NCBI GenBank assembly: GCA_018820765.1
Contig: JAHJNN010000003.1
Location: 62,001-126,000 of the forward strand
From: Gammaproteobacteria bacterium
GTDB taxonomy: Bacteria > Pseudomonadota > Gammaproteobacteria > Burkholderiales > Thiobacillaceae
Direction of reading: 5' to 3'
Length of the DNA: 64,000 nt
The position numbers and the translations under genes are program-made. Positions 54,877-64,000 of this stretch are shown in pieces. Positions within the stretch are counted from its first letter, which is position 1. The number at the start of each line of letters is the position of its first letter. The notes below the pieces were generated by a model. It was not told where the DNA came from. It worked only from the letters and a program-made list of their open reading frames with translations, and made no database searches.

Positions 54877-56004
54877 ATGCTGTCCTTCCAACCGAGTGTC
54901 ACACTCGAGAAAACCCTCAAAAAGCTGCAAGCCGCGTTGGTGAATGCCGCCTCCGGGCTGGGTTCGCTCTCGGAGGGCGAGGCGCATTATCTGAATCGCT
55001 GCGCCCTGATCAGCAATGTGGGCGCCTCCACGCGGATCGAAAACGCACTGCTCACCGATGCCGAGGTGGAATGGGTGGACACCACGCTCTCGGTAGATGG
55101 GCGCACCACAGCGTTCGAGCAGCACAAGGATTTCATCCTCGACAAGCTTTCCAAGGATCGTGAGCGCAGCGTGGAAGAGGTGGTGGGCTGCCGCGAAGTG
55201 TTGGCGACGATCTACGCGCAGGCGCGGGATTTCATTCCGCTCACCGAAATGGTGATACGCGGCTTGCATCATGACTTGCTCAAGTTTTATCCGCAGGCCT
55301 CGCCCTATGCAGGCGCGTACAAAACCACGTCCAACCGCGTAATTTCCAAAAATCACGCCACGGGCGAAGTGCGCACCGTGCTCGACCCGGCCGCGCCCGG
55401 CATCGCCACCGAAACCGCAATGGCCGACCTGGTAGCGTGGTACAACGCCAATCGGAACGAATCGCCCTGGCCGCTGTTGGCGGCAACGGAATTCGTGTTT
55501 CGGTTTCTGGCGATTCATCCTTTCCAGGATGGGAATGGGCGCATCGGACGCGCGCTGTTTCTCCTCGCGCTGTTGCAATCGGACGATGAGCACCTTGCGG
55601 CAGTGATGCCCTATGTCGCGCTGGACCGGCGCATCGAGCAGAACCGCGCAAAGTACTACGCGGTACTGCACGAAGTGTCTCAAGGCACGTTTCAAGCCGA
55701 CCCGACGCGCTATCGCTACGAACCGCTGGCCAGGTTCTTCCTGAAAATGCTGGAAGACGCCTTGCGCGACGTGGAGCACACCCGCGCACGTTATGTGCGT
55801 CTGCAAAAGCTGTCGGAAACGGCGTCGGCCGTGCTGCAAAGTTTCAAATCGCGACCGGAGCAACGCTTGCAGGTGAACGACATCGTAAGCGCGACACAAC
55901 TGCCGCGCCGGACCGTGCAGTACGCCTTGAAGACGCTGACCGATCAGGGCTTCCTGCAGCGCCTGGGACAAGGTGCGGGGGTGAGGTACCAGTTGGTGTT
56001 CTAA
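54877..56004 (+). CDS. Class II Fic protein (AMP-transferase) with C-terminal winged helix
   Basis: A 375-residue Fic protein. The inhibitory motif STRIEN (Ser51 to Asn56; [S/T]xxxE[G/N]) is in the N-terminal helix, making it self-inhibited. The catalytic loop HPFQDGNGRIGR starts at His214. The C terminus (LQVNDIVSATQLPRRTVQYALKTLTDQGFLQRL) is a winged helix that could bind the large palindrome 40 bases upstream. Fic enzymes transfer AMP to target proteins. The start chosen is the ATG giving MLSFQPSVTLEKTL. Confidence 0.9.
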   Translation: MLSFQPSVTLEKTLKKLQAALVNAASGLGSLSEGEAHYLNRCALISNVGASTRIENALLTDAEVEWVDTTLSVDGRTTAFEQHKDFILDKLSKDRERSVEEVVGCREVLATIYAQARDFIPLTEMVIRGLHHDLLKFYPQASPYAGAYKTTSNRVISKNHATGEVRTVLDPAAPGIATETAMADLVAWYNANRNESPWPLLAATEFVFRFLAIHPFQDGNGRIGRALFLLALLQSDDEHLAAVMPYVALDRRIEQNRAKYYAVLHEVSQGTFQADPTRYRYEPLARFFLKMLEDALRDVEHTRARYVRLQKLSETASAVLQSFKSRPEQRLQVNDIVSATQLPRRTVQYALKTLTDQGFLQRLGQGAGVRYQLVF

Positions 56005-56967: not shown

Positions 56968-57087
56968 TTAACGCACTGCCCCCGGGTCCACCATCTGCAC
57001 CACCAGCTTGAACCATTCCGGTTTGAAGTCATGGCCTTCGTCGATCATGACGGCTTCGTACTGCCCGGCCGGGATCAGCTGACTATC
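56968..57087 (-). pseudogene. Fragment of a superfamily I helicase/NTPase (Walker B region)
   Basis: A 39-residue frame reads QYEAVMIDEGHDFKPEWFKL and then VVQMVDPGAVR-stop. MIDEGHDF is a Walker B of the UvrD-like helicase group. No start or other helicase motifs remain; the nucleotidyltransferase gene abuts it. It is the scar of a lost gene. Confidence 0.75.
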
Positions 57088-57799
57088 CACGCCGCGGATG
57101 ATCCAATTTACCAATTTGCTCGAACCGCAGCGTCAGCAGCTTGACGCGCTCGGCGAGCGATTCGTCCGGAAACACCATTCCGGGCAAGGCGTTCATAAAG
57201 CCGGGCATCGCCAGAAGCGTCCTGCATTGCGCCGCCAAATATTGCCGCAGCTCGGGTGCGGCCGAGGCGACTTCGGAGACAAGCTCCGGCCGCCCATCCA
57301 CCACGTTGACGATATCCTCCAGGTCGTGGCTGCCCAGCACATCGCCCTGGCCCCGATCGAAAAACGCCTCGAATTTTGTGGCCATGAAGGCGGGCGCGCT
57401 GATCAGGCGAATGGTCATCCCCGCCGACAACGCAACCTTCTGGGCCGTTTGCACCGCCACCGGATACCAACGATTGGCAAAACCGAGAATGCCCGGGTCC
57501 ATCGGCATCAGGTCCACTTCCAGATTGTTGAAGCGCCAGCGACAGATTGGCGCGTCCTGTGCCATGTCGCGCTTGAAACCAAGTCGGGCAAACTCTTTTT
57601 CCAGTGCGTGGTAACCGGCCAGTGCCTCCACCCGCGCCACCAGGTCCACATCGTACGTCACCCGCGCCGGCGCGGCGGCAGGGTCGGTCAGCAGCAAGTC
57701 CACCGCACAACCGCCCACAAAGACCAACTGCTCCCGCAGGGTCCCGAGCGCATGCGCGACCAGTTCAAGCTTGGCCACATTCGGATGCAGACGCTTCAT
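57083..57799 (-). CDS. AbiEii-type nucleotidyltransferase
   Basis: A 238-residue MNT/Pol-beta-fold nucleotidyltransferase. LVFVGGCAVDLLL and VTYDVDLVARV (Asp50, Asp52) form the GG-A...DxD core, and VDLMPMDP adds the third acidic residue. This is the AbiEii/AbiGii toxin-type domain, whose members add nucleotides to tRNA acceptor ends. It overlaps its upstream partner (57796) by 4 bp, as in AbiE-type toxin-antitoxin pairs. Confidence 0.85.
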   Translation of the reverse strand: MKRLHPNVAKLELVAHALGTLREQLVFVGGCAVDLLLTDPAAAPARVTYDVDLVARVEALAGYHALEKEFARLGFKRDMAQDAPICRWRFNNLEVDLMPMDPGILGFANRWYPVAVQTAQKVALSAGMTIRLISAPAFMATKFEAFFDRGQGDVLGSHDLEDIVNVVDGRPELVSEVASAAPELRQYLAAQCRTLLAMPGFMNALPGMVFPDESLAERVKLLTLRFEQIGKLDHPRRG

Positions 57800-58332
57800 T
57801 GAAAGAATGGCTCCAGCAACCTCTGCGCGGCCTCACGCTCGCGTGCCTGGCCGCTGCGGATCGCGTCGAATAGCGCGAGCACCGCATACAGGCGCTCGTC
57901 TTTCAGCGCAGCATCGGGCACCGATGGATACAGCGGCACCAAGCTCAACCCACGCACCGTGCCACCGGGGTGCGGCCACACCGGCACCGGGTCGCTGGAC
58001 GGCGCAATGACGCCATTCAACGGCGCAGCGCCATAAGCCGTGGGAACCCCGCGCGTCAGCGTGCCCCACACCGGCGCAAACGCATACTTGGCGCCATGCA
58101 ACACAAACTCCCGCAACTGCGGCTTCAGCACCACCGGACGCCGTTCCTCGAACATCGCGAGCCGCGCCGTGGCCGCCCGCTTCAGCGCGCCATGCACCGC
58201 CGAGACCGCCAGCCCGGTCTGCTCCGCCAGTTCCGTATAGCCCGCGCTGCCGTCGCCACGGCTCAGCAATGCCAGCAGCACATAAAGGTCCTGCGGCTTC
58301 AGCACCACCTGACGGTTGCTTATTTTAGGCAT
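57796..58332 (-). CDS. HTH protein paired with the AbiEii-type toxin, probable antitoxin
   Basis: A 178-residue protein with an N-terminal winged helix (LKPQDLYVLLALLSRGDGSAGYTELAEQTGLAVSAVHGALKRA) and a C-terminal domain that does not resemble a family I know. The stop overlaps the start of the toxin (ATGA). Two inverted operator-like copies sit just upstream of its ATG. Autoregulating antitoxin is the working inference; AbiEi-type antitoxins also combine a winged helix with a second domain. Confidence 0.75.
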   Translation of the reverse strand: MPKISNRQVVLKPQDLYVLLALLSRGDGSAGYTELAEQTGLAVSAVHGALKRAATARLAMFEERRPVVLKPQLREFVLHGAKYAFAPVWGTLTRGVPTAYGAAPLNGVIAPSSDPVPVWPHPGGTVRGLSLVPLYPSVPDAALKDERLYAVLALFDAIRSGQAREREAAQRLLEPFFQ

Positions 58333-58778: not shown

Positions 58779-59417
58779 TCACGGCGTCTCCGCCTTGTTC
58801 AGGCCGTCGAGGATGATTTGCCGCAGCATGCTGTTGTCTGCGGCGCGGACACAGACGATGGAAGCCTGGATATAGGCGTTGGTTTCGTCCGCCGCTTCAC
58901 CGAGGGTCTGGCTATAGTCGACGGGGCCGTAACCGTTGTACATGGCGATGAGGTCGAAGAACAGGCGGGTGATGCGTCCATTCAGTTCGTAAAACGGGTG
59001 CAGGGCGATGAGCTCGCACTGGTAGTGCGCCATGCGTTCGGCAAACTTTTCCTTCGGCCAGTCGGCGGCCTGTTTGAGATAGTCTTCCTGTTCCATTTGC
59101 CGAAACAGGCGCTGGGACTCTTTTTCCAGAAACTCGGCGCGGCAGAACAGCGAGCCGCCCTTACTCATGTCCACGCTGCGATACTCACCTGCCCAGTCGT
59201 ACAGACTTGCCCAGGTGCGCTGATGCAGAGACTTGAAATAGGCCTCGTCAAAGCGGGTGGCGGGTTGAAGTTCGGCGATGAAAATCTGATAGGCCTGTTG
59301 CAGCAGGCTTGCTTCGATTTCGTGCAGCAGGTCGGCTTCGGTTACACCCAGACGGTTCTTGGGGATATCCGTGCCAGGAATGTAGATGTCACTTTCCAGG
59401 AACTGATACCTGGACAC
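58779..59417 (-). CDS. Fic/Doc-family toxin (class I FicT)
   Basis: A 212-residue Fic protein without its own inhibitory helix. Motifs are ASLYDWAGEYRSVDMSKGG (the flap) and HPFYELNGRITRLFFD from His140. The usual HPFxxGN has Leu145 in place of the Gly before Asn, so phosphate anchoring may be changed. It starts GTG at 59417 and overlaps the antitoxin gene upstream by 29 bp. The pairing fits class I FicTA. Confidence 0.86.
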   Translation of the reverse strand: MSRYQFLESDIYIPGTDIPKNRLGVTEADLLHEIEASLLQQAYQIFIAELQPATRFDEAYFKSLHQRTWASLYDWAGEYRSVDMSKGGSLFCRAEFLEKESQRLFRQMEQEDYLKQAADWPKEKFAERMAHYQCELIALHPFYELNGRITRLFFDLIAMYNGYGPVDYSQTLGEAADETNAYIQASIVCVRAADNSMLRQIILDGLNKAETP

Positions 59418-59547: not shown

Positions 59548-59801
59548 GCTTCCCTCCAAGGATTGACCCGCCGGTTTGGCGCCAGGCTGAACCAAATAGC
59601 CTTGGCGGGTGTTAATCATTCTAACAAGCCCCCCAGAAAATACCAACGCGCAATATCGCTTTCATTCAAACACTTATGAGCATTTTTTGCCACGAAATCA
59701 TGCTCGGCATTGTTCCTTAGCTTCGGTAGTTATGAACAAATACCGAAAGAATGGAACGACTCAGGCTGAGATGTCAGGTTGGAAACCAGCCACCCCCGCA
59801 A
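59548..59801. other. Upstream region of FicTA, no gene; shared motif present
   Basis: Contains GCGCAATATCGC at 59648-59659, identical to the core of the palindrome before the class II fic gene. AT-rich bases around 59600-59640 are a plausible promoter for FicA-FicT. No RNA gene recognised. Confidence 0.5.
59648..59659. promoter_or_regulatory. GCGCAATATCGC motif upstream of FicTA
   Basis: The 12-base core shared with both arms of the palindrome at 54782-54836. It lies about 100 bases upstream of the FicA start on the minus strand. One half-site only is present here. Confidence 0.5.
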
Positions 59802-59828
59802 CAAAAAACCCCGGCATGCCGGGGTTTC
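59802..59828 (-). terminator. Intrinsic terminator of the cold-shock gene
   Basis: AACCCCGGCATGCCGGGGTT (59807-59826) is a perfect palindrome, followed on the minus strand by a run of T (A-run at 59803-59808). It lies 23 bases after the csp stop. Confidence 0.88.
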
Positions 59829-59848
59829 TTGATTCAGCCAAAGTGCGT

Positions 59849-60052
59849 TTACGCAGCCTGGATGTTTGCAGCCTGCTTGCCCTTGGGGCCCGGGACGACA
59901 TCGAAGCTGACGCGCTGGTTTTCCTGCAGCGACTTGAAGCCGCCTGCCTGGATCGCCGAGAAGTGCGCGAAGAGATCATCGCCACCGCCGTCCGGCGTAA
60001 TAAAACCAAAGCCCTTGGCGTCGTTGAACCACTTAACAGTACCTGTTTCCAT
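59849..60052 (-). CDS. cspA: Cold-shock protein (CspA family)
   Basis: A 67-residue cold-shock domain protein: [17 protein letters not shown] with RNP1, and DLFAHFSAI with RNP2. It is an RNA chaperone that melts secondary structure. The size is normal. A long leader upstream (60053-60130) is usual for this family, where the 5' UTR regulates translation, though I cannot model it here. Confidence 0.95.
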
Positions 60053-60275
60053 TGTGTATTTCCTTTAATAAACCTGCTTGGGCAACATGCCCGATCCATC
60101 GAATATCAAGGAAAAGTCGACAACCAGAGGTACCGCTAAAACATCTTGAATCCTACAGACGCATGTCTGAGGCCCGTTTGGCGAATAAGTTCAAGTTATT
60201 TTGGGGTGGCGCTTACTGATTGAAGGCCGTCAACGGCTGACACCTCTGTGTGGCCGGCCGACCACTCTGCCAGGC

Positions 60276-60338
60276 TCAATGCAGGCAGCATTTCTTGATT
60301 TTCTTGCCGCTTCCGCAGGGCCGGGATTGGCTAGCTGG
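60276..60338 (-). pseudogene. SEC-C zinc motif remnant
   Basis: On the minus strand, in a different frame from the ASCH gene, the codons read RPCGSGKKIKKCCLH-stop, the classical SEC-C metal-binding tail (CGSGKK-KKCC). It overlaps the last codons of the ASCH gene. It has no start of its own; it is either the tail of a lost gene or the frameshifted end of the ASCH protein. Confidence 0.7.
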
Positions 60339-60771
60339 CCAAAACATTAACCAACTGGTCTTTAGTTAGGTAGCGATAGATTTGCGGTGGATGGAATCCC
60401 TCCAGGCTCTCTCTCAACTCGTCGAGTCCAATCGGCTCATCAAAGAAATCTACCGCTCCAAATTTAATCCCATATGCACTCTTTGCGCCCTCAAAATATC
60501 CCGCGTATTCCGCTTTAGAAATTCCAGCCCATTCACGAACCCGTGGCCACAGTTTTCCCGGCGAAGACGTGAGAACATCTTCCACGATGCCATAGCCAAC
60601 AAGCGCCATGGTTGGCGAGGACTCATAAATAAGGACAAGCTCACCTGTCCCGATATTAGGCCGCGTACGTCGCAATTCGACTCGCTTCGTTCCCACAACT
60701 ATCTGGGCAACATACTGCGGCTTTATTGAGATCAATAATGCGCGCTCGATTGAACCAAGCAACTCTCTCAT
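60331..60771 (-). CDS. ASCH/PUA-like domain protein
   Basis: A 146-residue protein: ALLISIKPQYVAQIVVGTKRVELRRTRPNIGTGELVLIYESSP is the ASCH pattern (K-E-RR...G..v.iYes). ASCH/EVE domains bind RNA or modified bases and cluster with toxin or defence genes. ATG 60771 lies 7 bases after the stop of the GNAT-PIN gene, so it is the third gene of an overlapping operon. A SEC-C-like tail is encoded beyond the stop in another frame. Confidence 0.8.
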   Translation of the reverse strand: MRELLGSIERALLISIKPQYVAQIVVGTKRVELRRTRPNIGTGELVLIYESSPTMALVGYGIVEDVLTSSPGKLWPRVREWAGISKAEYAGYFEGAKSAYGIKFGAVDFFDEPIGLDELRESLEGFHPPQIYRYLTKDQLVNVLAS

Positions 60772-60778
60772 CGTTCTT

Positions 60779-62887
60779 TCAGATCTCGTACAGTTCAAAA
60801 AATGTCTCAGTGTCGATCGCAACAGGCGACCTGATATTCGTATTAACGCCACGACTTCGGAGCACCTCTTGCACCCTTTTCCAAGCCACCGGCCTATTCA
60901 TCTGCTCTGTCTGACTGAAACGCAAGGCCATAATGTCCGAATTGATGTTCTGTCGTGCCGTCGCGTAGACATCTCTCCATTCGTATACCCCTAATCTGCG
61001 ATACGCCCTATATAACTCTTTTGGCTTCCCCACAACGACCTCATCCAATCTCGAGCAAGCCCGAATATGACCAGATCCCTGGATATTCTTTCCCTGACTG
61101 ACATACCAGAGAATCCGCGCTGGGGCTGCTAGCTTGGTGAAGTGGGTCGTGCGGTAATAGACTCCCTCTAGCTGAAGAGCAAGATCAAGATTTGCCCCCA
61201 ACAAATCCTGCCGCGCTAGCTCCTCATCGAACAATTCCCTCGCCCATGAGGGTTGAATCGGAATGATGTAATTCTGAATAGCCAGATCGGTTATTTTCGC
61301 TGGCCATAATGCCGTTTCCACTTTGGCTAGCGAAAACGGATCACTAATCAGGGAATGATTCGAAAGAGTTCGTGAAAGACTCTTGAGGGGAACAACAACG
61401 TCAGAGCGGCCATTGGCCAAATTGGACAATGCCTCTGCCATCTGCCTAGATGTTCCCACCATTGGAAAGCCTGCTCTAATCCAATGTCCATTTGAATGAG
61501 AATATCCAGACTCAGTCAGAGCCCGTTCAACCACCGGCATTAAGAATTTGTCGCATATTTTTGTAATTACCGCTCGCCGCGAGGCAGAACGCCAATGCAT
61601 ATGGGCCGCGAGATAACGCGCAAGAGTGGCGTCCAGGTCCCTTGCATTCAAACGCAGGAGAGGCACCTCCGAAAGCACTTCGTCCACTTCACGCTTGGCA
61701 TACAGTGCCAACACTTCCTCAGTGCCATCACAGACAACATAGCATCGACACTTCTCTGGGTTTCCCAGTAACGCCGTTATCGTTCGCCGGAACGCCGCCG
61801 CTTTCTCCCCGACCGCATTGCCCTGGAAACGCAAAACCAGTCGCTCGACCTCGCCAGGTTTAACCAGCCTGTGCTCAAGCCTTGTCCCCGCGAGGCGGAC
61901 TGGACGATAGTCTGCTTCGCTCTCCATACTATCCAGATGCACGACCAGATCTACGGGCCTCATAACCGTCAGCCCATACTGTTCGTAGAGAACGTCGCCT
62001 CTGCAAATAACGCCAGCATCTCTGGTCACAAAAAACTGTATCCCAGCCGCCAGCGCATAGGCCAACTGCCGAATATCCGATTCGTCTTGAACTGTAATGG
62101 GTGTCTTATAAAGAAAGCGAATCTCTTCAACGAAACGGTCATATTGAGCCAACTCGCTCTGCACCATGGAAAACTGTCCTACCCGCGCCCTCTCTTGTCG
62201 CCGCAAAGATTCATTCTTCTGCCGATCGATCTCGTTAAGAATTTCTGGAGTTACAAATAACTCGACGTTAACCTGCACCCAATCCGCAGCGAGCGCTTTT
62301 GACTCTTCACTCTCGACGTCGTTTCGCTCATCAAGATCAAAAAACACATTGGCGTCCATCACTACAGGCAGTTTCTGGCCACTGCCCATCGCGATTGCGA
62401 GATTTGAAGAGAAGAGATCTGGATGACCGTAGTCCAACCACCAGGTCGTGAGAGGTTTTCTATCCACACCTCGACCAGTTCTGTCATTCATGGCGACAAA
62501 TCCTAGCCGTGGCCATAAAGCAGCGACGGGGAAATCCCTTCGGCAACTTAGACGTATGCCTCGCATCGTCTGGGTCGCGGACTTGAGACCATCAATAAGA
62601 GCTCGTGCAACCCCAGATGACCTCCGCTCGGTTGCTACGCAAAGGTGGACGAGAACTACGACGTTCCGAGATATTCTGTATAAGGCATACCCTACGCATT
62701 GCTCAGAATCATCCTCAGCAATCAATATTTGTCCTTTGGCTGCGTATTCCTGAAACGCGCCAGCAGTAAAGAAGCCAAGTGTGGCGGAATTAGAACGCCA
62801 AAGGCGACTAACCTCAGCAAGCTGATTGCTATCAACATCCAGGCGAAGTTGTCTGACCTCAATCACTGATGCCGTCCGTCTGTTCAA
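60779..62887 (-). CDS. GNAT acetyltransferase - PIN nuclease multidomain protein
   Basis: A 702-residue protein. Residues about 8-140 are a GNAT acetyltransferase (VVLVHLCVATERRSSGVARALIDG, acetyl-CoA loop). Residues about 172-310 are a PIN nuclease (VVMDANVFFDL with Asp178, ILNEIDRQ, FFVTRDAGVI). The remaining about 380 residues form one or more helical/mixed domains I do not recognise. The start is probably TTG 62887 (TTGA overlap with the gene before); GTG 62866 is an alternative. PIN domains cut RNA and GNAT toxins block aminoacyl-tRNA, so both halves point to translation. Confidence 0.82.
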   Translation of the reverse strand: MNRRTASVIEVRQLRLDVDSNQLAEVSRLWRSNSATLGFFTAGAFQEYAAKGQILIAEDDSEQCVGYALYRISRNVVVLVHLCVATERRSSGVARALIDGLKSATQTMRGIRLSCRRDFPVAALWPRLGFVAMNDRTGRGVDRKPLTTWWLDYGHPDLFSSNLAIAMGSGQKLPVVMDANVFFDLDERNDVESEESKALAADWVQVNVELFVTPEILNEIDRQKNESLRRQERARVGQFSMVQSELAQYDRFVEEIRFLYKTPITVQDESDIRQLAYALAAGIQFFVTRDAGVICRGDVLYEQYGLTVMRPVDLVVHLDSMESEADYRPVRLAGTRLEHRLVKPGEVERLVLRFQGNAVGEKAAAFRRTITALLGNPEKCRCYVVCDGTEEVLALYAKREVDEVLSEVPLLRLNARDLDATLARYLAAHMHWRSASRRAVITKICDKFLMPVVERALTESGYSHSNGHWIRAGFPMVGTSRQMAEALSNLANGRSDVVVPLKSLSRTLSNHSLISDPFSLAKVETALWPAKITDLAIQNYIIPIQPSWARELFDEELARQDLLGANLDLALQLEGVYYRTTHFTKLAAPARILWYVSQGKNIQGSGHIRACSRLDEVVVGKPKELYRAYRRLGVYEWRDVYATARQNINSDIMALRFSQTEQMNRPVAWKRVQEVLRSRGVNTNIRSPVAIDTETFFELYEI

Positions 62888-64000
62888 ACTTCAAGATGTT
62901 GTTGTGTTCCACTATTTGCCGGCGGCTTGCGGTATTCCGCGGGTGGTACGCCCAACTGCTTCGCACTCAGAAGCCGACTTTTTAGGATCTGCTCCAGTAG
63001 TGTTTTTTGTTGCGGATAGATTTCCAGTGTCTCTTCCAGAAGTTGGAGCAGCCGCAACAACTCAGAGGTGAATTCAGGTGACCAACCGGATGGTGTGATG
63101 TCATCAAGAGGAGAGGACTTTTTTCCCTTGCGGCACTTCATGCGGTAACCAAGCCAGGATTGCACCACCTTGAGACCTGAAACTTCAAACTCCCATACCG
63201 CCTGAGTAACCGGTTTGAACAGGCCATCTCCGATATGCAGCGTCTGACTTGCCTCGTCGTAACAATATTTCTCCGGCAAGCTTTCCGTGGCTATGGCTTT
63301 AGTACAGCGGGCACGGCCATGTGGCCATGTTTGGCCTTGCGCAAAACGTTCGCCGTAACTATGCAAATAAATGAGCCGCCGCCCGATGGCAACGGCAACT
63401 GCAAACAACTCCTTGTCCAGCGTCAGCGGAACTCGCACCTCGCGGTTCTCTAGTTCTTCGTGAAAGCTCGCCGCGTAGCCGGGATGCGCAAGCACGGTGT
63501 AGAGATAGGCGGCGAAGTCTTCCGCACTGACCACCTTCTCAAACGCCTGCTGCAATACAGCGAGCAAAGTAGGATGCAAGTTTGGGTGTTGGGCTTGTGC
63601 GTCGCGGTAAAGGGGAAGGATTTCCTTGGCGCCAAACGAACCCCGAAAATAATGAAGATCGGGCACACCGGCGCTGATGCTCAAAGCAGGCCCCGTACCG
63701 AGCGTGCTCGATAAGAGACTGGCGAAGTATATTTGCGCGTCCGAATGGCTATGCCAAAGTGGTGGTGAAGGCCGATCAATAAATCTGAAATCGTGAATCA
63801 CAAACTGACGGTCAAATGACCGATAGCCGTACGACATTAGTTGGGGAAGCGGGCTATGCTCATCAGTCTCCGCAATGGGCTGAGGTTTGTCTGAAACCTT
63901 CTTTCCAGTTGGACTGTTTTTGAAGAGATTTGCTTTCTCAGGCTTAGAAATTGCGTACAGACGCCGTATGCGCTCACATAGCACATCGCTGGTAGAACCG
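62884..64000 (-). CDS. C-terminal part of a probable type ISP restriction-modification enzyme (5' end outside window)
   Basis: An open frame continues from the window edge to a stop at 62884 (371 residues seen). LMSYGYRSFDRQFVIHDFRFIDRPSPPLWHS and LPLYRDAQ resemble the C-terminal region of type ISP (LlaBIII/LlaGI-type) single-chain restriction-modification enzymes and related N6-adenine methyltransferases. The methylase and helicase parts would lie beyond 64000. The assignment is by motif memory. Its last bases overlap the start of the GNAT-PIN gene by four. Confidence 0.65.
   Translation of the reverse strand, partial: GSTSDVLCERIRRLYAISKPEKANLFKNSPTGKKVSDKPQPIAETDEHSPLPQLMSYGYRSFDRQFVIHDFRFIDRPSPPLWHSHSDAQIYFASLLSSTLGTGPALSISAGVPDLHYFRGSFGAKEILPLYRDAQAQHPNLHPTLLAVLQQAFEKVVSAEDFAAYLYTVLAHPGYAASFHEELENREVRVPLTLDKELFAVAVAIGRRLIYLHSYGERFAQGQTWPHGRARCTKAIATESLPEKYCYDEASQTLHIGDGLFKPVTQAVWEFEVSGLKVVQSWLGYRMKCRKGKKSSPLDDITPSGWSPEFTSELLRLLQLLEETLEIYPQQKTLLEQILKSRLLSAKQLGVPPAEYRKPPANSGTQQHLEV

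Follow-up and report, generated by a model that had tools for sequence, protein, structure and literature searches.

Near the right end of a 64,000-nucleotide stretch of a gammaproteobacterial contig (JAHJNN010000003.1; the whole stretch is called the window), three successive genes on the minus strand encode a type ISP-like restriction-modification (RM) enzyme, a 702-amino-acid (aa) protein and an ASCH protein. Judged by domain content and homology, the last two genes are a real, conserved two-gene module and a variant of a predicted defence family. In 66 of the 67 loci in which the large gene encodes at least 560 aa, an ASCH gene follows downstream within 0.5 kb. Tentatively, and at somewhat under an even chance, we read the pair as a rearranged form of the (PIN)-GNAT-EVE/ASCH systems: a conflict module in which RNA-directed acetylation and cutting would be guided by a double PUA-like reader.

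The large gene (60779..62887) starts with TTG and encodes, in order, GNAT, PIN, degenerate GNAT and EVE-type domains, as assigned by Pfam, PADLOC and hhalign. The ASCH gene (60331..60771) encodes 146 aa, and its ATG at 60771 lies 7 bp beyond the end of the large gene (60779). A longer 173-aa version in the list of open reading frames (ORFs) has a GTG start that falls inside the preceding gene. The type ISP-like gene in its entirety spans 62884-66135 (1083 aa), running past the window end; its C-terminal part (62884..63999), assigned by Pfam and PADLOC, lies within the window as the operon neighbour. Its TGA stop (62886-62884) shares 4 bases with the TTG start (62887-62885) of the large gene. 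ORFs, strand, and start and stop positions thus bear out both the 4-bp overlap and the 7-bp spacing described in an earlier note made from this sequence alone.

Pairs of this kind have precedents in (PIN)-GNAT-EVE + ASCH operons and in the PADLOC candidate system PDC-M11. The main text of Bell et al. 2020 (PMC7641849) describes such operons, often with an AAA_17 ATPase and with a link to type I restriction, and states that none of the modules was experimentally characterised. Neither the phrase "second GNAT" nor any word beginning "cyanobacteri-" occurs in that main text.

A conserved gene pair

Homologues of the large protein were found in four plasmid records and, using a scan with a four-sequence alignment, at 68 loci on genome contigs. 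A scan of the genome contigs with the large protein as a single sequence returned no relatives. L040, from the same strain as L037, was left out of the counts and of alignment A4, and the partial genes L064, L068, L072, L074, L075 and L076 were left out of the 67 loci. A4 holds 60 full-length proteins, the window protein included, and is also without L020 and L063. L003 and L006-L009 are outside A4 and inside the 65-sequence tree and residue set. Of the 60 proteins in A4, 44 are in A5 and A6; A7 consists of the window and 40 of 54 eligible partners.

The 66 ASCH genes comprise 57 identified by ORF clustering, one present as two ORFs (L034) and eight identified by six-frame search (L030, L045, L052, L055, L056, L063, L070 and L071). 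ASCH is the next ORF in 58 loci, within 25 bp in 46 and with a 4-bp overlap in 16; it starts 121 bp downstream in L055 and 480 bp downstream in L071. The one locus without ASCH, L020, has a truncated large gene. Clustering of 922 neighbour proteins from the 67 loci revealed ASCH as the sole general partner (57 loci this way), and the pair is spread across many phyla, Cyanobacteriota, Bacteroidota and Actinomycetota among them. The earlier proposal that the GNAT-PIN and ASCH genes form a true unit is upheld by the 66/67 loci. Among plasmid relatives of ASCH, 32/40 listed records (43 found) have a match to a (PIN)-GNAT-EVE protein or to the long form no more than about 250 bp away; H11, H27, H31, H33, H39, H41, H42 and H43 do not. 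H11 is a Microcystis plasmid, and the inspected stretch ends at the record's end. Two copies of the large gene occur within one assembly in a Verrucomicrobia bin (L030 and L062) and in Chitinophaga filiformis (L037 and L040).

Pfam identified two domains in the 702-aa protein, both above the cut-offs. The N-terminal GNAT (residues ~43-137; 62477..62761; Acetyltransf_7, E 5e-7) has the acetyl-CoA loop RSSGVA, and its residues C115, R116, D118, W125 and F130 are almost invariant across the family. The PIN domain (residues ~175-290; 62018..62365; PIN_3, E 1.5e-7) retains an intact acidic tetrad, D178, E215, D271 and D290. No Pfam domain was detected after the first 290 residues, and the central and C-terminal assignments rest on sequence profiles. 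An hhalign comparison with nine canonical PIN-GNAT-EVE proteins gave an end-to-end alignment of residues 172-698 (99.7%, E 8.8e-27). PADLOC PDC-M11A models match residues 175-327 and, with another model, 536-697 (best hit E 1.4e-18), and the PADLOC models call the gene pair a candidate PDC-M11 system. The GNAT-PIN fusion in the earlier note therefore stands as far as these two domains go; residues 331-702, with the degenerate GNAT and the EVE-type domain, had been overlooked.

The C-terminal domain (60782..61342) is an EVE/ASCH-type PUA-like domain whose reader tyrosine, Y595, is invariant in 65/65 sequences. Comparison by hhalign links it to the partner ASCH (96.9%, E 1.9e-10), and a profile built from partner ASCHs alone picks up 11 of the large proteins with E values of 0.01 or less. 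In one canonical relative of about 640 aa (L079:1228-3147), PIN, GNAT, EVE and ASCH are fused in one polypeptide, which directly supports EVE and ASCH working together.

The Pfam ASCH match of the partner is below cut-off (E 0.004). Its identity is borne out by PADLOC PDC-M11B (E 5e-30) and by the closest solved relative, the Zymomonas mobilis ASCH ribonuclease (PDB 5GUQ, 5GUS; PMC5615036), with which the window protein aligns across the whole domain (131 residues, E 4e-16); the partner ASCH profile matches the same structure at E 2.6e-34. According to the account of the Zymomonas protein (PMC5615036), it binds single-stranded RNA and cuts RNA but not DNA; K53E and S128A lowered binding, Y47F lowered both binding and RNA cleavage, and Q127 is a residue implicated by modelling. 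Y47 and Q127 correspond to Y49 and Q130, which are invariant in the partners, whereas K53 and S128 are replaced in the window protein by M55 and I131.

The strict pairing and close spacing would also suit a toxin-antitoxin system, with the 702-aa protein as toxin and ASCH as an antitoxin that binds it or reverses its product. GNAT and PIN are both toxin types: work cited by Bell et al. has GNAT toxins acetylating aminoacyl-tRNA and PIN RNases as common toxins (PMC7641849). An ASCH that undoes acetylation is conceivable, as the ASCH protein YqfB is reported to strip acetyl groups from N4-acetylcytidine (PMC6972931). However, YqfB-like deacetylation by the partner was rejected, the YqfB nucleophile Thr24 of the Lys-Thr-Glu triad, which lies three residues after the motif Lys, corresponding at that distance to a Glu32 that is invariant in 41/41 partners of the alignment. 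The gene order, toxin first and partner second, also speaks against an antitoxin, and the covalent EVE-ASCH fusion in L079 suits a subunit better than a removable antitoxin. We consider a toxin-antitoxin pair unlikely.

A probably added and a degenerate GNAT domain

Because residues 172-698 align with the canonical proteins, the central domain (61340..61897) occupies the place of the canonical GNAT. Its matches to PDB profiles are weak (E 0.06-0.5), and three of the four hits are GNATs. Two patterns were used to examine the acetyl-CoA loop. The relaxed pattern fits 8/9 canonical GNATs, the ninth (L079) having been missed in extraction, and 0/60 central domains. The strict pattern fits one central domain (L047) of 60 and also fails on the canonical loops (0/9), so that the claim of a lost loop is based on the relaxed pattern and on Pfam. 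Acetyltransf_1 was seen in 8/8 canonical proteins tested, five of them above cut-off, and Pfam gave no hit in 2/2 central domains tested from the long-form family. The central GNAT thus appears degenerate, with its acetyl-CoA loop gone and its catalysis presumably lost. The N-terminal GNATs fit the strict or relaxed pattern in 49/60 proteins.

To see if the N-terminal GNAT had been duplicated from its canonical counterpart, a profile was built from the N-terminal domains; at E up to 0.01 it found 0/9 canonical proteins and 0/60 central domains. The N-terminal GNAT is therefore more likely an addition from another GNAT family than a copy. A small stand-alone GNAT-like gene, with a loop that looks intact by eye, lies between the large gene and ASCH at L071:11944-12492.

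Since its central GNAT has no recognisable loop, the pair was filed as a variant of the (PIN)-GNAT-EVE + ASCH systems. Like them, it has an adjacent ASCH gene, and residues 172-698 carry PIN, GNAT-like and EVE-type domains arranged in the same succession; in the window genome a restriction gene lies alongside as well. It differs in the extra N-terminal GNAT and the lost central loop, in an ASCH that is not fused to a helix-turn-helix domain, in having no AAA_17-like gene seen alongside, and in a type ISP-like rather than a type I neighbour. Similarly, PDC-M11A models match the PIN and EVE parts and PDC-M11B matches ASCH, but the matched M11A models are 376-501 positions long and none matched anything N-terminal of PIN. 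The canonical systems are widespread, and the variant narrows the question of which GNAT is the enzyme, suggesting the N-terminal one. It further suggests that EVE and ASCH stay associated, and that PIN can decay in a clade in which McrBC-type genes adjoin the pair.

Proposed mechanism, nucleases and restriction neighbours

In the mechanism we favour, the EVE-type domain and the separate ASCH subunit, both PUA-like, would bind nucleic acid jointly as one reader. The bound nucleic acid would most likely be tRNA or another structured or modified RNA. VapC-type PIN toxins cleave tRNA. Infection or a failed restriction response would provide the right target. The N-terminal GNAT would then acetylate the bound RNA or its attached amino acid, and PIN would cut the RNA, halting translation and phage growth; the module would in this way be toxic and defensive. 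The central GNAT, its catalysis lost, would stay as a scaffold. At the window, the module and the type ISP-like enzyme are predicted to form one operon, so the module is probably transcribed and made together with restriction and may serve as its second line. A scan for sigma-70-like promoters across L002:1700-8500 gave one match, below the shuffle mean of 4.6, and it sits in antisense orientation within the type ISP gene.

Several observations weigh against this mechanism. A Pfam GNAT hit was obtained in 60/60 large proteins of A4 (Acetyltransf_10, E up to 0.1), but these hits are at the whole-protein level, with positions for the window protein only. The N-terminal GNAT fits neither loop pattern in 11/60 proteins. 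No Pfam EVE hit was among the families listed for the 60 large proteins, and against the PDB the EVE-type domain gave only weak ASCH matches (E 0.18). Of the three residues mutated in the Zymomonas protein, Y47, K53 and S128, the window ASCH keeps only Y47. The PIN tetrad is altered in 11/11 cyanobacterial and 9/54 other sequences, which argues that PIN cutting is not universally needed. Restriction genes are rare among the pooled genes near the pair and adjoin a minority of loci. Finally, full-text literature searches revealed no recognised experiment on such a pair and no toxicity or defence test.

The cyanobacterial PIN domains were compared with the others at positions 178, 215, 271 and 290 (window numbering). 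The tetrad is intact in 45/54 sequences outside the cyanobacterial clade, the window included, and in 0/11 inside it (Fisher p 2e-7, with sequences treated as independent). Because the 11 sequences form a single clade with support of 100/100, this contrast is close to a single evolutionary event in one lineage. Eight of the 11 lost the first Asp; L023 has one change, L025 two, and L013 D-to-E changes only, at two positions. The nine deviating sequences outside the clade differ at the second position (seven) or by D-to-E at the fourth (two). In L045, L047, L052, L055, L059, L060 and L070, all Actinomycetota, the acid at the second PIN position (E215) is missing, and none of the seven is in the McrB or McrC clusters.

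After ASCH, the next neighbour clusters are an McrB-type ATPase and an McrC-type nuclease, in 11 loci each, all cyanobacterial. The McrC cluster takes in the truncated L020 and leaves out L007. Within the clade, an McrB-type AAA gene lies downstream in 11/11 loci and an McrC-type gene in 10/11, L007 being without it. These assignments are based on clusters, with Pfam run on L006, L007 and L013 only. The two clusters include no locus outside the cyanobacteria, and neither type lies beside the window pair. The same 11 clade sequences keep the GNAT loop, and Y595 is kept in them as elsewhere. Loss of the PIN tetrad together with downstream McrBC-type genes suggests a GNAT-EVE-ASCH core with a nuclease that can be swapped.

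In the chief alternative, which is directed at DNA, GNAT would acetylate or otherwise acylate a base in DNA; EVE and ASCH would recognise this mark, and a nuclease (PIN, or McrBC in cyanobacteria) would attack wrongly marked DNA, as in an RM system that uses an acetyl mark. McrB-type genes in 11/11 and McrC-type genes in 10/11 clade loci represent modification-dependent restriction of DNA, and in the clade the GNAT and reader residues are conserved while PIN changes. PIN domains usually cut RNA, however, and the McrBC link is limited to one clade. Acetylation of DNA bases was proposed by Iyer et al., as cited in the main text of Bell et al., which also names EVE and some ASCH domains as modified-base readers (PMC7641849), whereas the ASCH relative with a known activity cuts RNA and not DNA (PMC5615036). 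We regard a DNA target as doubtful, with a modest chance of being correct.

It is possible, though speculative, that GNAT, EVE and ASCH are an acetyl-writing and -reading core with swappable nucleases, PIN in the same chain in most lineages and McrBC encoded downstream in the clade, and that the family as a whole has gained a new N-terminal GNAT and retired the old central one. If so, the family would be a modification-guided defence system with exchangeable cutters that acts on acetylated nucleic acid. A further proposal was made by Bell et al. for PIN-GNAT-EVE proteins, namely that PIN degrades tRNAs acetylated by phage GNAT-EVE proteins and so protects against them (PMC7641849). That role leaves both the extra N-terminal GNAT and the changed-PIN clade unexplained, and we consider it highly improbable for this pair.

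The type ISP-like protein, up to 44% identical to annotated type ISP plasmid proteins, combines three features of type ISP enzymes in one chain: an N6 methylase domain, a PD-(D/E)XK-like motif close to the N-terminus, and a type ISP specificity domain. It differs from them in that no helicase domain was found, either by Pfam (E up to 0.001) or as a Walker A or DExH pattern. LlaGI/LlaBIII-type enzymes carry a helicase/translocase domain. Extension of the sequence beyond the window, which the earlier note had suggested would reveal methylase and helicase domains, thus delivered the first and not the second.

The same strand, the 4-bp overlap and a stretch that is unmatched in three sister stretches and holds these three genes could indicate that the type ISP enzyme, the large protein and ASCH are one system, a three-part complex or a regulated unit. 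But a gene similar to the type ISP gene adjoins the pair in only 3/67 loci (the window, L053 and, on the opposite strand, L052), and neighbours vary. Furthermore, the four plasmid hits of the large protein are absent among the best 40 of 71 type ISP plasmid records. A conserved third component was rejected on the 3/67 count, which also gives no support to the type ISP enzyme as part of the unit envisaged earlier, and we consider a three-part system very unlikely.

A type III-like pair and Eco57I-like enzymes occur as neighbours in single loci, and several immediate neighbours that were scanned are unrelated to restriction. Methylase motifs (N6 or m5C) were detected in 10/579 near genes (10/67 loci) and 1/380 far genes, near meaning less than 5 kb away and the 579 including the partner ASCHs. 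In Pfam samples, with the 25 commonest families listed, N6_Mtase was found in 2/108 and McrBC in 4/108 near genes, and HSDR_N in 2/112 far genes. The near sample (A8) is 108 of 275 eligible genes and the far sample (A9) 112 of 147; the window, L003 and L040 are outside these pools. Enrichment of restriction genes near the pair is weak at most, the far genes coming from the same loci and being a non-independent control. No particular restriction gene accompanies the pair throughout, and most loci have none directly alongside.

Probable acquisition of the stretch

The stretch was probably acquired, as the earlier note had proposed from its low GC content. GC is about 0.51 in the stretch and about 0.66 elsewhere; along the sequence it is about 0.48-0.60 from roughly 59.5 kb to 66.4 kb and rises to 0.70 beyond. 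The 3.7-kb stretch has no match in 35/35 other genomes of the genus that were searched, and the three genes (window ~60.3 to 66.2 kb) have none in three sister stretches compared. To the right of the island edge, a patatin-like gene (named by eye) is 85-88% conserved in three sister genomes. To the left of this gene, two of the sisters carry other restriction genes, of type I: an HsdR-like gene in L128, and HsdR with HsdM- and HsdS-like ORFs in L129. Pfam was run on the HsdR-type proteins only, and the other genes of L128 and L129 were read by eye. The site may be a hot spot for restriction genes and other cargo. A search of phage records gave no match, nor did a near-match search of plasmids with the operon DNA, and the island borders share no 12-mers as direct repeats.

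The left-hand neighbour, a cold-shock gene whose leader is a cspA thermoregulator (59801-60190; RF01766, 82.6 bits), is matched in other genomes of the genus. Near the island, two Fic-like genes (54877-56004 and 57083-58332) and a putative pair of a nucleotidyltransferase and a helix-turn-helix protein (58779-59417) were recognised by eye. Matches from sister genomes cover stretches of the second and third of these loci (57083-58332 and 58779-59417).

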